A stretch of 64,000 nucleotides of DNA, from assembly GCF_900182745.1 (NCBI RefSeq), contig NZ_FXTY01000005.1, forward strand, positions 124,001-188,000, in the 5' to 3' direction. This document shows positions 25,411-39,904 of this stretch, one piece after another. The DNA is from Shimia sagamensis. GTDB lineage: Bacteria; Pseudomonadota; Alphaproteobacteria; Rhodobacterales; Rhodobacteraceae. Both the position numbers and the translations under genes were made by a program. The notes under the pieces were generated by a model, which worked only from the letters and a program-made list of their open reading frames with translations, searched no databases and had not been told where the DNA came from. Within the stretch, counting starts at the first letter, position 1. The number at the start of each line of letters is the position of its first letter.

Positions 25411-26040
25411 ATGATTTTCTATGATTGCGCGACAGCGCCCAGCCCACGGCGGGCGCGCATGTTCCTTGCTGAAAAAGGGCTAGAGATAGAAACGCGGCAG
25501 GTCGATCTGCGCAATGATGGCCACCGCGCGCCGGAGTTTTTGGCGCTGAATCAACACGGTACGGTGCCGGTTCTCACCACTGACGAAGGGCTGAACCTCA
25601 CTGAGAACATAGCGATTGCTGGCTATCTTGAGGCCTTTCAACCCGAGCCGCCGTTGATGGGCGCCACGCCAGACGAAAAGGGTTCAGTGCTGATGTGGAA
25701 CGCGATTTGTGAGTTTCATGGCGGCATGTCGATTGCCGAAACGCTGCGCAATGCCTCCCCTGCCCTCAAAGGCCGCGCGCTGCCTGGGGCTGTCAACTAT
25801 GACCAAATCCCGGTGCTGGCCGAACGTGGAGTCAAGCGCTTGCAACTGTTTTACACCACATTGGAGAAACGCTTGCAGGAGCGCCCCTGGCTGGCCGGCG
25901 ACAGTTTCACTATGGCGGATATCACCGGTTACGTGTTTTGCGACTTTGCGCGAATCGTGAAGATGACCCCACCCGAGGAAAACACGGCCACCCAGGCCTG
26001 GCTCGACAAGATTTCCTCCCGCCCCAGCGCAAAAGCGTAA
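25411..26040 (+). CDS. glutathione S-transferase family protein
   Basis: A 209-residue protein with the two-domain GST fold. The N-terminal thioredoxin-like domain runs from MIFYDCATAPSPRRARMFL through the cis-proline of GTVPVL and the glutathione-binding LTENIAIAGYL. The all-alpha C-terminal domain holds RPWLAGDSFTMADITGYVFC. Family members conjugate glutathione to electrophiles or reduce peroxides; the substrate is unknown. Strong ribosome site AGGAGG lies just ahead of the ATG, and a terminator follows. Confidence 0.92.
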   Translation: MIFYDCATAPSPRRARMFLAEKGLEIETRQVDLRNDGHRAPEFLALNQHGTVPVLTTDEGLNLTENIAIAGYLEAFQPEPPLMGATPDEKGSVLMWNAICEFHGGMSIAETLRNASPALKGRALPGAVNYDQIPVLAERGVKRLQLFYTTLEKRLQERPWLAGDSFTMADITGYVFCDFARIVKMTPPEENTATQAWLDKISSRPSAKA

Positions 26041-26088: not shown

Positions 26089-26120
26089 GTTGTGCGTCAG
26101 TGTTTTGGGGAGAGAAGGCA

Positions 26121-26196
26121 GCGGCGACATCAGGGAGGAGGAGAGATGTCGCCGCGCTTCACACAAAGCGCTCAGGGAGGAGGAGAGAGCGCCTTG
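26121..26196 (-). ncRNA. CcsR-like small RNA, fourth (promoter-distal) unit
   Basis: Two hairpins. The first in transcript order (26196-26164) has a nine-base stem with one G-U pair. The second (26155-26121) has a perfect ten-base stem. Both loops read CUCUCCUCCUCCCUG on the minus strand, containing the anti-Shine-Dalgarno motif CCUCCUCCC. In Rhodobacter sphaeroides, CcsR RNAs are stress-induced, have two such hairpins each, and are cut from a transcript that also carries the DUF1127 gene ccaF1. I see no T-run after this unit, so ends probably come from processing. Confidence 0.82.
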
Positions 26197-26232
26197 ATGC
26201 CGGTGACCCCGCGACGGGATCGAATTTCAAGT

Positions 26233-26307
26233 GCGACGGTGCCAGGGAGGAGGAGAGGCACCGTCGCTCTAGTTTCAAGTGCCCTCAGGGAGGAGCGAGG
26301 GCGCTTG
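26233..26307 (-). ncRNA. CcsR-like small RNA, third unit
   Basis: Two hairpins. The promoter-proximal one (26307-26276) has a ten-base stem and a 12-base loop CGCUCCUCCCUG, one repeat shorter than the others and with one C-A mismatch on this strand. The distal one (26267-26233) has a perfect ten-base stem and the standard 15-base CCUCCUCCC loop. The shortened loop suggests this unit is diverging. Confidence 0.82.
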
Positions 26308-26338
26308 ATACCGTTGGGCCAATGGGCCCGAATTTTGT

Positions 26339-26413
26339 GCGACGACACCAGGGAGGAGGAGAGGTGCCGTCGCTATTTCAAGTCACTCCAGGGAGGAGGA
26401 GAGGAGCAACTTG
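26339..26413 (-). ncRNA. CcsR-like small RNA, second unit
   Basis: Two hairpins, 26413-26379 and 26373-26339, each with a ten-base stem and a 15-base loop holding CCUCCUCCC. Every non-Watson-Crick pair (two in the first stem, one in the second) is a G-U wobble when read on the minus strand but an A-C mismatch on the plus strand. This supports minus-strand transcription. Confidence 0.85.
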
Positions 26414-26446
26414 AGCTCATTGGACCGTTCTGGTCCTGTGTTCGCT

Positions 26447-26515
26447 ACGACGACACCAGGGAGGAGGAGAGGTATCGTCGCAGTAGTGGAAGGCCTGAGG
26501 GAGGAGCGGCCTTCC
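26447..26515 (-). ncRNA. CcsR-like small RNA, first (promoter-proximal) unit
   Basis: Two hairpins. The first (26515-26488) has a perfect eight-base stem and a short loop GCUCCUCCCUCA, and begins only six bases after the DUF1127 stop codon. The second (26481-26447) has a ten-base stem with two G-U pairs and the full 15-base CCUCCUCCC loop. The closeness to the DUF1127 stop implies one transcript that is then processed. Confidence 0.82.
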
Positions 26516-26521
26516 GAATTC

Positions 26522-26737
26522 TTATGCCTCGCGGCTTGCTTCAATCGCCAAGCGGCGGATCATCGAGCGGCTCAAACCCAAGTCGGCCAGTTCGCGGTCA
26601 GAGAGCTGATTCAGCTCATTGTACGTCGCGCGGTAAACGCGGTACTGACGGAAGCGTTCTGCTGCGTTGGCGAAAAAAACCGAAAGGCCGGAGGCTTTAG
26701 GTGCTGCCAAGGAGGTATGGTTTGCTACATATGCCAT
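26522..26737 (-). CDS. DUF1127 small protein, CcaF1-like
   Basis: Seventy-one residues. The C-terminal half is the DUF1127 helix pair with the arginine-rich lead (FRQYRVYRATYNELNQLSD) and the signature RELADLGLSRSMIRRL. The Rhodobacter homologue CcaF1 sits in front of the CcsR RNAs, binds RNA and affects small-RNA maturation and turnover. The same gene order here supports equating the two. A second DUF1127 gene at 39695 lacks the RNA array. Confidence 0.92.
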   Translation of the reverse strand: MAYVANHTSLAAPKASGLSVFFANAAERFRQYRVYRATYNELNQLSDRELADLGLSRSMIRRLAIEASREA

Positions 26738-26786
26738 TGTCGTTTCTTTCAGTCTGGTAGAGTGTCTGTTCGCTGTTGTGTTGGTG

Positions 26787-26815
26787 ATATAGGCTGATGC
26801 TGCATCTGCACAATA
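26787..26815 (-). promoter_or_regulatory. candidate RpoH-type promoter for the DUF1127-CcsR transcript
   Basis: On the minus strand, TATTG (26815-26811) and CCTATAT (26793-26787) are separated by 17 bases. The start codon lies about 50 bases downstream. The -10 resembles those used by the alternative heat-shock sigma factors RpoHI/RpoHII of Rhodobacter, which drive the homologous locus. The -35 is a weak match. Confidence 0.55.
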
Positions 26816-26983
26816 GCTGCCTTGGCAAAGCAGTTATGCATTCAGCGAATACCAGACGTTACGTCAAGGTAAACTAGAGAGAAATTAACCAAGGTGCGGA
26901 ATTGGTTGAAGAAATGTAAACGAATTCTTACATCCAAAATGAGAAAGTGCCGCAATTGTGCACTTGCAGCATAGGAGTTGTGC

Positions 26984-28060
26984 ATGTCCGTCAGCAAAGA
27001 AGAAGTACAGGCCGTTTTGCAAAAAATTGCGCTGCCAGACGGTGGCGATCTGATGTCCCGCGATTTTGTTCGCGCGTTGAGCATTCGCGAAAGTTCTGTG
27101 CAGTTTGTTATTGAAGCGCCCAACCCTGATATAGCACGGCTGATGGAGCCGTTGCGTAAAATGGCGGAAGCGGCCGTTGCCGCGCTGGACGGGGTCGACT
27201 CGGTGCAGGTGGCATTGACGGCGCATGAGAGCGCCCCTGCCCCCAAACAACCGGCACCCAGTCTAAAAATTGGCGGACATCCAAAACCCCAATCCGGACC
27301 GATGAAAGTCGCTGGCGTGGATCGCATACTTGCGGTGGGCTCCGGCAAAGGGGGCGTGGGCAAATCCACCGTGTCGTCCAACCTCGCTGTGGCGTTGGCC
27401 AAGCAAGGCCGCAAAGTGGGTTTGCTGGATGCGGACATCTATGGTCCAAGTCAGCCACGTATGATGGGTGTCAACAAACGGCCCGCAAGTCCCGATGGGA
27501 AAACCATTATTCCGCTTGAGGCCCATGGCGTTACCATCATGTCGCTGGGCTTCATGCTGGACGACGACAAGCCGGTTGTCTGGCGGGGACCGATGCTAAT
27601 GGGCGCGTTGCAGCAGATGTTAACCCAGGTGCAATGGGGTGATCTGGATGTGTTGATTGTGGACTTGCCGCCCGGAACTGGCGACGTGCAATTGACGCTG
27701 TGTCAGAAGACGGAACTGACCGGTGCCATTGTGGTGAGCACACCGCAGGATGTGGCTTTGCTCGACGCGCGCAAGGCGCTTGGCATGTTTGATCAACTGA
27801 AGACGCCAGTGCTGGGACTCATTGAAAACATGAGTCTTTTCCACTGTCCAAAGTGTGGACATGAGGCGCATATCTTTGGTCACGGCGGCGTGGCGGCGGA
27901 GGCTGAAAAGCTTGGCGTGCCGCTGCTTGGGGCGCTGCCAATAGATCTGGACACGCGGCTTGCTGGAGATGGCGGCACGCCAATTGCCGCTGGGGACAGC
28001 GACATGGCGCAGGCCTATGCGCAGATTGCCAGCGGCCTGGTGCGGGGTGGGATGGCCTAA
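26984..28060 (+). CDS. mrp: Mrp/ApbC/NBP35-family iron-sulfur cluster carrier ATPase
   Basis: A 358-residue protein. Residues 1-75 form a DUF59/MIP18-like domain. A proline-rich linker leads to the P-loop ATPase with the deviant Walker A GKGGVGKS at about 121-128, then LLDADIYGPSQPRMMG and VDLPPGTGDVQLTL. The CPKCG pair near residue 283 is the Fe-S-bridging CxxC. It carries Fe-S clusters to apoproteins in the cytoplasm. AGGAG lies a few bases upstream of the ATG. It diverges from the DUF1127 gene. Confidence 0.95.
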   Translation: MSVSKEEVQAVLQKIALPDGGDLMSRDFVRALSIRESSVQFVIEAPNPDIARLMEPLRKMAEAAVAALDGVDSVQVALTAHESAPAPKQPAPSLKIGGHPKPQSGPMKVAGVDRILAVGSGKGGVGKSTVSSNLAVALAKQGRKVGLLDADIYGPSQPRMMGVNKRPASPDGKTIIPLEAHGVTIMSLGFMLDDDKPVVWRGPMLMGALQQMLTQVQWGDLDVLIVDLPPGTGDVQLTLCQKTELTGAIVVSTPQDVALLDARKALGMFDQLKTPVLGLIENMSLFHCPKCGHEAHIFGHGGVAAEAEKLGVPLLGALPIDLDTRLAGDGGTPIAAGDSDMAQAYAQIASGLVRGGMA

Positions 28061-34209: not shown

Positions 34210-34284
34210 GCGGGCGTAGCTCAGGGGTAGAGCATAACCTTGCCAAGGTTAGGGTCGGGCGTTCGAATCGCCTCGCCCGCTCCA
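34210..34284 (+). tRNA. tRNA-Gly (anticodon GCC), copy 1
   Basis: Seventy-five bases with a full cloverleaf: acceptor GCGGGCG/CGCCCGC, D-arm AGCTCAGGGGTAGAGC, anticodon loop TTGCCAA reading GCC, T-arm GTTCGAATC and an encoded CCA. The sequence is identical to copy 2. Confidence 0.98.
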
Positions 34285-34452: not shown

Positions 34453-34527
34453 GCGGGCGTAGCTCAGGGGTAGAGCATAACCTTGCCAAGGTTAGGGTCG
34501 GGCGTTCGAATCGCCTCGCCCGCTCCA
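34453..34527 (+). tRNA. tRNA-Gly (anticodon GCC), copy 2
   Basis: Identical to copy 1 over all 75 bases, including the CCA end. The flanks differ, so this is a gene duplication rather than a longer repeat. It has its own terminator downstream. Confidence 0.98.
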
Positions 34528-39694: not shown

Positions 39695-39904
39695 ATGGCC
39701 TTCATCACCACTTCTTCCGCGAGCTCCCGTGGTTCCAAGTTTTCCCTGTCCCGCCTGACGCAAGCCTTTGCCGTCCTACGTCAGCGCCGCCAGCTGTCAC
39801 AGCTGGATGCCACTGCCCTGCGCGACATGGGTTTGACCCAAACAGATGTGGACTGCGAGTTGAGTCGCTCCGCGTGGGACGTTCCCGCACATTGGCGCGG
39901 CTGA
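39695..39904 (+). CDS. DUF1127 small protein
   Basis: Sixty-nine residues. The serine-rich N-terminus is followed by the arginine-rich DUF1127 core (FAVLRQRRQLSQLDATALRD) and MGLTQTDVDCELSRS. It resembles the other DUF1127 protein at 26522, but no hairpin array follows it. Ribosome site GGAAAGGA. Related proteins are RNA-binding or modulate phosphate and stress responses; the specific role here is unknown. Confidence 0.9.
   Translation: MAFITTSSASSRGSKFSLSRLTQAFAVLRQRRQLSQLDATALRDMGLTQTDVDCELSRSAWDVPAHWRG

Follow-up and report, generated by a model that had tools for sequence, protein, structure and literature searches.

Immediately behind a short gene of the DUF1127 type, on the minus strand of the 64,000-nucleotide stretch of the Shimia sagamensis genome analyzed here (contig NZ_FXTY01000005.1, positions 124,001 to 188,000; the window), lies an array of eight stem-loops that present anti-Shine-Dalgarno motifs. 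The gene (26522..26737, minus strand) encodes a ccaF1-like protein of 71 amino acids that matches PF06568 with 57.9 bits (cut-off 23.3), and 6 nt separate its stop codon from the array. The stem-loops occupy 395 bases (26121-26515), and every one of them scores at least 22 in a hairpin finder. In the order of the minus strand they are A1 (26488-26515), B1 (26445-26483), A2 (26378-26414), B2 (26339-26373), A3 (26275-26308), B3 (26230-26270), A4 (26164-26196) and B4 (26121-26155). Six of the eight carry the full 15-base sequence CUCUCCUCCUCCCUG; the loops of hairpins 1 and 5 (A1 and A3) are shorter and read GCTCCTCCCT. The anti-Shine-Dalgarno motif itself is CCTCCTCCC in six loops and CTCCTCCC in the remaining two. 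The initial annotation had placed exactly this arrangement here: eight minus-strand anti-Shine-Dalgarno hairpins in 395 bases, six of them with the full loop, directly behind a DUF1127 gene.

The minus strand of the window has six copies of the sequence CTCTCCTCCTCCCTG, all of them inside the array; the plus strand has none. The whole genome holds ten copies of CTCCTCCCTG: seven are in the array (the loop of hairpin 1 differs at its end) and three lie elsewhere (L001, L039 and L040), where the hairpin finder shows no such hairpin. A slightly looser version of the finder, applied to both strands of the rest of the window, lists two candidates, neither scoring 22 or more; within the array it lists seven hairpins, one of two neighbors being lost to overlap. 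The array region folds at -203.1 kcal/mol, compared with -129.2 +/- 5.9 for 100 shuffles (z -12.6). A TRF tandem-repeat search of the window returns nothing at score 30.

The array and its gene are flanked upstream by a divergent gene for an Mrp/NBP35-type ATPase (26978..28060, plus strand; PF10609) and downstream by a convergent gene of the glutathione S-transferase family (25411..26040, plus strand; PF13409 and others). The ORF list also contains a 202-amino-acid reading frame (26092..26700, plus strand) that is antisense to the array and judged spurious. A second DUF1127 gene of the window (39695-39904, plus strand; 27.4 bits against 23.3) has no anti-Shine-Dalgarno hairpins that could be found beside it; DUF1127 matches number seven in the genome as a whole, and three of these lie within ~1 kb on contig C3.

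At Rfam's gathering threshold the entire window returns three tRNAs only. (Two tRNA genes on the plus strand, 34210-34281 and 34453-34524, have equal scores and matching letters and lie 243 bases apart.) The RF02791 (CcsR1) model nevertheless matches four consecutive two-hairpin units on the minus strand: unit 1 (A1 and B1, 26442..26521, 46.4 bits, E 4.5e-10), unit 2 (A2 and B2, 26334..26418, 48.1 bits, E 1.4e-10), unit 3 (A3 and B3, 26228..26311, 50.2 bits, E 3.4e-11) and unit 4 (A4 and B4, 26116..26200, 50.4 bits, E 3e-11). With scores of 46.4-50.4 bits, no unit of the window reaches the RF02791 gathering score of 65.3, and the array is therefore not a member as Rfam itself defines one. The ar14 model (RF02344) finds two stretches, whose 55.4 and 52.7 bits likewise fall short of the cut-off (58.8). 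The initial annotation had called the locus CcsR/cuckoo-type and had offered a covariance-model run on the minus strand as its own check, with a score below threshold as the outcome that would tell against it. The four units directly behind the DUF1127 gene, at E 3e-11 to 4.5e-10, uphold the assignment; the scores remain below the gathering value.

That value cannot decide membership, because only 5 of 100 genomes of the family pass it while 79 of 100 match RF02791 at E<=1e-4 (own genome included in both counts; none of 14 control genomes matches). Among 394 family genomes, 17 pass the gathering score. At the more permissive E<=0.01, the Shimia sagamensis genome has four matches, all in the array; 36 of 60 genomes match and none of the 60 exceeds the gathering score (own genome included), and at this setting 1 of the 14 control genomes (Thermus composti) also matches. 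We identify the locus as the cuckoo/CIN1 locus of Alphaproteobacteria in its Shimia form, of the known ccaF1-CcsR1-4 kind.

The likeness to the Rhodobacter sphaeroides ccaF1-CcsR1-4 locus (PMC10253847) is one of overall design: a 71-aa DUF1127 gene followed by four two-hairpin anti-Shine-Dalgarno units. In the window each of the four RF02791 matches covers two hairpins, and four is the predicted number of RNAs. The R. sphaeroides operon is characterized by co-transcription, RNase E processing, Hfq binding and stress induction. CcsR1-4 are described as products of the ccaF1 3' UTR (PMC8625941), their homeostasis as dependent on RNase E and PNPase (PMC7866481); they target flhR and affect the glutathione pool (PMC8307010, PMC7074977) and are involved in downregulation of the pyruvate dehydrogenase complex (PMC7074977). 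CcaF1 is an RNA-binding protein with an effect on CcsR maturation (PMC10253847). The Shimia locus differs in that its RF02791 scores lie below the gathering cut-off; in its loops, six of 13 nt (UCUCCUCCUCCCU) and two short; in the spacer hairpins noted here (see below), which are also present in the spacers of the five loci with the top RF02791 scores (L053-L057); and in its array end, which lacks a T-run, whereas the R. sphaeroides locus has a Rho-independent terminator (PMC10253847), a feature that is not taken here as defining the RNA family. With the cuckoo family and CIN1 (a locus named in PMC10253847) the array shares CCUCCUCCC loops, variable stems and the adjoining short DUF1127 gene, the last identified by PF06568 at a distance of 6 nt. 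Anti-Shine-Dalgarno loops on variable stems are also shared with Sinorhizobium ar14/NfeR1 (RF02344), which differs in having three hairpins, its own sigma-70-type promoter and a role in nitrogen regulation (PMC10746234). NfeR1/ar14 silences ntrB, and mutations in its loops abolish silencing (PMC10746234); related Sinorhizobium RNAs have three and four hairpins (PMC3927594).

The stems around the 13-nt loop vary and yet stay paired, as they do in the cuckoo/CIN1 family. In 176 distinct 33-mers from the window and its relatives, 85% of the stem cells are paired, compared with 52% after shuffling, and cells in which both partners have changed number 598, compared with 206 (maximum 237) in 300 one-side shuffles. 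When the partner is shifted by one column, pairing falls to 0.38-0.68 per position in one direction and to 0.05-0.77 in the other. The shuffle test does not yield a probability, because the rows are related, but the effect is large; the covariation therefore indicates selection on RNA structure around a fixed loop. It also bears on the alternative that the 202-aa plus-strand ORF is a real gene, the hairpins merely reflecting the repetitive protein that it encodes. The warning in the initial annotation, that the array is easily misread as coding, was well placed: one antisense frame is open over more than 450 nt in the window and in six more of 12 Shimia-group loci, and in five of these seven the open frame has the same register with respect to the stop codon of the DUF1127 gene. 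However, L067 and L074 use another frame, stops interrupt all three antisense frames in 5 of the 12 loci, and the units are of unequal length. Taken with the stem covariation, these facts lead us to reject plus-strand coding, to which we give next to no credence.

To follow the conservation of the locus, the 80 best named loci were taken from at least 174 confirmed DUF1127 loci. At least two anti-Shine-Dalgarno hairpins lie downstream of the gene in 66 of these 80, which bears out the initial suggestion of a conserved gene order. Nine of the 14 array-less loci are from Rhizobiales (eight Microvirga and one MAG), two lie at a contig edge (L091 and L114) and three have one hairpin or none (L103, L104 and L133). 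The array-linked DUF1127 protein of the window is 97% identical to its homologue in an uncultured Shimia MAG, and the next-best loci are mostly from Shimia. In the same best 80 of at least 174 loci, a divergent mrp gene lies upstream of 49 of the 66 arrays (a count that includes L100 and L105, where it is more than 1 kb off, and L093, a weak partial match); a convergent GST gene lies downstream of 8 of the 66, all in the Shimia group.

Copy number, which had also been taken for conserved, is not: named arrays span 2 to 24 hairpins. Within the genus, 19 of 25 genomes show the usual four RF02791 matches (range 3 to 7, with the counts of 7, 6 and 6 in G002, G011 and G024 each one too high as unit counts); the second-locus matches of these three genomes (L041-L043) show no such hairpin in the hairpin finder. 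Across 72 named loci of more than 3.9 kb, the number of hairpins ranges from 0 to 24, with 6 and 8 the commonest values. Such counts are minimum values, since some hairpins escape the finder or are merged by it: 7 are listed in L065, although 8 were seen in L016, which is the same contig. The five top RF02791 loci (L053-L057) comprise clusters of 8, 14, 11, 8 and 8 hairpins. In L035, which has 12, the middle units score equally and recur every 109 bp; the array of Alexandriicola marinus (L109:2651-3850) contains 24 anti-Shine-Dalgarno hairpins and is built from copies of a 140-bp unit of three hairpins, which match one another at 97%. In most Shimia loci hairpin 1 retains the short-loop form and the middle units resemble each other. 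Since counts vary and middle units are repeated and alike, arrays appear to grow and shrink through unit duplication, and four is not a fixed number. Reinkensmeier and Giegerich in 2015 reportedly gave 2-4 hairpins as the cuckoo RNA consensus; the arrays of relatives collected here extend to the 24 of Alexandriicola marinus. The initial interpretation of the locus is thus essentially correct, except that copy number is not fixed.

A promoter-like element, TTGTGC-N4-GCAGCAT-N3-CCTATAT, lies ahead of the DUF1127 gene (26787..26813, minus strand), where it was recognized from the sequence and its relatives. Within the best 80 of at least 174 DUF1127 loci, the composite pattern is present at 37 of 66 array-linked loci and at none of the 14 others; its GTGC..GCAGCA core is present at 57 of 66 and at 4 of 14, two of these four (L091 and L114) being cut by the contig end. 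The -10 of the element is RpoH-like, and the variants in some relatives read CCCCATCT (e.g., L088, L106, L112 and L142), which resembles the RpoH consensus. Judged by these sequence features, a sigma-32-type stress promoter ahead of the DUF1127 gene is likely. A link to RpoHI/RpoHII promoters is known for the R. sphaeroides locus (PMC10253847). Between the two boxes of the element lies a conserved core of the TGCAnnnGCAGCA type, which is possibly the operator of some regulator. At the other end of the array, the last hairpin runs into, or precedes, at least four Ts in 49 of 67 arrays, and because of this T-run it could also serve as an intrinsic terminator that bears an anti-Shine-Dalgarno loop; in the window and L065-L071 four consecutive Ts are absent from this position.

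All three inter-unit spacers of the window contain a small hairpin that lacks the anti-Shine-Dalgarno motif: S1 (GGACC-AGAAC-GGTCC, 26422..26436), S2 (GGGCC-CATT-GGCCC, 26316..26329) and S3 (GATCCCG-TCG-CGGGGTC, 26205..26221), all on the minus strand. In 61 distinct Shimia-group spacers, 96% of the cells of these hairpins are paired, compared with 84% after shuffling, and double-change cells number 37, compared with 7.6 (maximum 14 in 500 shuffles); extra pair types number 12 compared with 8.5, a value of 12 being attained also by the best shuffle. The exceptions are a spacer of L020, which by a simple rule has no stem, and L038, in which a different stem is chosen. More generally, 177 distinct motif-free spacers of 24-60 nt from 131 loci fold with a mean z of -2.0, with z < -1 in 86%. 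Small hairpins, some of them larger than those of the window, are also held in the spacers of L053-L057; the spacers of L109 are without them. The spacer of the window is A-rich on the 5' side of the small hairpin (ACAAAATTC), and this A-rich stretch is plausibly, by inference from its composition, an RNase E region; the hairpin may steer cutting or halt 3' exonucleases.

The anatomy of the array, its covariation, conservation, gene linkage and complementarity are directly seen, and the transcription, processing, pairing and stress role of its relatives can be carried over to it by analogy. The locus very probably specifies one stress-activated transcript of DUF1127 gene and array that would be cut into about four anti-Shine-Dalgarno RNAs repressing selected mRNAs. 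Most likely a single stress-activated promoter yields gene and array as one RNA. RNase E would cleave within the A-rich single-stranded spacers, and trimming would leave about four RNAs of ~75-85 nt with two long hairpins each, the small inter-unit hairpin probably marking or protecting the cut ends. The DUF1127 protein would serve as an RNA-binding maturation factor. The hairpins of each RNA would display UCUCCUCCUCCCU or its short version, CUCCUCCC; these loops would pair with strong Shine-Dalgarno sequences, blocking translation and promoting decay of selected mRNAs.

The pattern GGAGGAG-N3-9-ATG has 69 matches in the genome, one of them on the array's own antisense strand, compared with 14 for the reversed pattern. 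Thirty of the 69 loci (28 distinct sites) were examined and 15 ORFs annotated, four without an NCBIfam match. Strong Shine-Dalgarno starts were found at pdhA (TIGR03182, above cut-off), at aceE (TIGR00759, a fragment below cut-off) and at genes for a P-II-like protein (below the equivalog cut-off), a DMSP demethylase (NF009133) and a methylmalonyl-CoA epimerase (TIGR03081). The excess over the reversed pattern is what one would also expect of a general translational brake, whose loops rival 16S rRNA for all strong-SD mRNAs and whose copy number sets the dose; that loop and 16S-tail pairing energies correlate (r 0.75 over 373 gene starts) and that array copy number varies widely point the same way. 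Nevertheless, the relatives are reported to act on particular pathways, flhR and pyruvate dehydrogenase in one case (PMC8307010, PMC7074977) and ntrBC in the other (PMC10746234), and pdhA stands out family-wide, as follows, so that an indiscriminate brake seems to us unlikely.

Because the pyruvate dehydrogenase complex is reported to be affected by CcsR RNAs, pdhA was tested across the family. Exact complementarity to the loop extends over at least 7 nt at 26 of 46 pdhA starts in array-bearing genomes and over at least 8 nt at 12 of 46, compared with at least 7 nt at 3 of 9 in genomes without an RF02791 match (Fisher p 0.18 for 3/9 against 26/46). The median pairing energy is -14.15 kcal/mol in the array-bearing genomes and -8.7 kcal/mol in those without a match (Mann-Whitney p 0.003, a test that ignores kinship and G+C). 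The set was derived from 57 of 61 genomes that matched, of which 55 were counted: G067 was excluded at 41% identity and the start was not found in G071. One genome, G027, was counted as array-bearing because of four hairpins in L047, though RF02791 finds nothing in it at E<=1e-4, and its inclusion weakens the contrast. By comparison, at least 7 nt of complementarity is found at 17 of 373 gene starts of the Shimia sagamensis genome and at least 8 nt at 4 of 373 (starts called by a simple script, the spurious antisense ORF included); the corresponding counts for mrp starts are 3 of 49 and 0 of 49. At pdhA of G099, which ranks second among the genomes by RF02791 score, complementarity is just 6 nt. 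The ranks of pdhA and aceE within the Shimia sagamensis genome are not independent evidence, because both genes were first spotted among the strong-SD matches; the comparison across the family is independent. A conserved target in aceE was considered and rejected: complementarity is 8 nt in the own genome, yet at least 7 nt in just 2 of 13 sequences (own included). Complementarity makes pyruvate dehydrogenase (pdhA) the best candidate target here.

The enrichment of loop complementarity at pdhA also weighs against reading the array as a CsrB-like sponge, in which the loops would titrate an RNA-binding protein and not mRNAs. Fixed loops on freely covarying stems in many tandem copies would suit such a sponge, and the linkage of the array to the gene of a small RNA-binding protein makes the DUF1127 protein the obvious candidate for the titrated partner (CcaF1 does bind RNA; PMC10253847). 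But a protein site has no need of the anti-Shine-Dalgarno core that the loop carries, and the loop mutations of NfeR1 abolish mRNA silencing (PMC10746234); we consider the sponge improbable, clearly more so than the brake, and retain repression of selected mRNAs as the preferred reading. Pairing between the loops and the start of the DUF1127 gene itself is weak: the median over 66 loci is -5.75 kcal/mol, and in 45 of 49 pairs the start of the neighboring mrp gene pairs more strongly. Self-immunity of the DUF1127 start is not claimed, since array-less DUF1127 genes often pair weakly too, in a comparison for which the search pattern missed 3 of 7 own-genome loci.

Units of the cuckoo type also occur on viral contigs. 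When these were scanned for two copies of the motif spaced as in a unit, at least 121 loci emerged. Among the matches listed, 41 of 121 have both copies in loops that are closed by perfect stems of 8 bp or more, compared with 0 of 69 reversed-pattern loci; 41/121 is not a rate for the collection, because it refers to matches listed from at least 121 loci. The 41 loci (among the matches listed) fall into 18 groups at 80% identity and 26 distinct strings. One of them, L321, consists of a simple tandem repeat and is probably no real unit. Pairs or triplets are seen in L271, L282, L289, L307, L322, L354, L356, L368 and L373, among others. In 25 inspected loci, the pair is outside any ORF of at least 70 aa in 12 (4 of them partly overlapped) and inside one, on either strand, in 13.

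Gene neighbors were scanned in 11 of the 41 loci and in five others outside the 41. An integrase, an annealing protein, a CI-like repressor and a helicase adjoin the pair of L271, which is the less sure because it overlaps a plausible coding start, and no relative of which was found in the phage collection. Repressors recur in L322 (with phrog_35370 and a helicase), L356 (CI-type, with phrog_35370 and a methyltransferase) and L368 (with a methyltransferase); L289 has phrog_35370 and a methyltransferase, L307 a RecT-like protein and L353 a tail fiber, while in L390 a ParB-like ORF extends over the hairpin pair. No PHROG match was found among the neighbors of L370 and, in a Pfam scan only, no Pfam match among those of L311. 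Units resembling ar14 lie beside helicase genes: a 574-aa ORF is 216-219 nt off in L326, L363, L367 and L372 (the phrog_16 helicase in L326; L363, L367 and L372 are grouped with it solely by the size and distance of the ORF). In L323 the neighbor is a 583-aa helicase (Pfam) at 72 nt. Of the ten papers listed among 65 matches of a literature search, none names prophage anti-Shine-Dalgarno small RNAs in its title or the opening of its abstract. It is tempting, though we would sooner doubt than assert it, to see cuckoo units as a portable, dose-tunable cassette for translation control: on the chromosome an array behind a DUF1127 gene, with a processing hairpin in its spacers and a repeat number set by unit duplication; in temperate phages the same unit near repressor and replication genes, where it might act on host Shine-Dalgarno sequences or on the phage's own.

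These findings extend the known stress-sRNA locus of R. sphaeroides to a marine Shimia and, by comparison, to most of the Rhodobacteraceae sampled (79 of 100 genomes), in which the Rfam cut-off hides it. The complementarity of pdhA offers a direct test of a target, and the conserved spacer hairpin is a concrete, testable processing signal for the precursors of tandem small RNAs. The units on viral contigs raise the question of whether phages use anti-Shine-Dalgarno RNAs; together with the spacer hairpin and the dynamics of the arrays, they are worth following.
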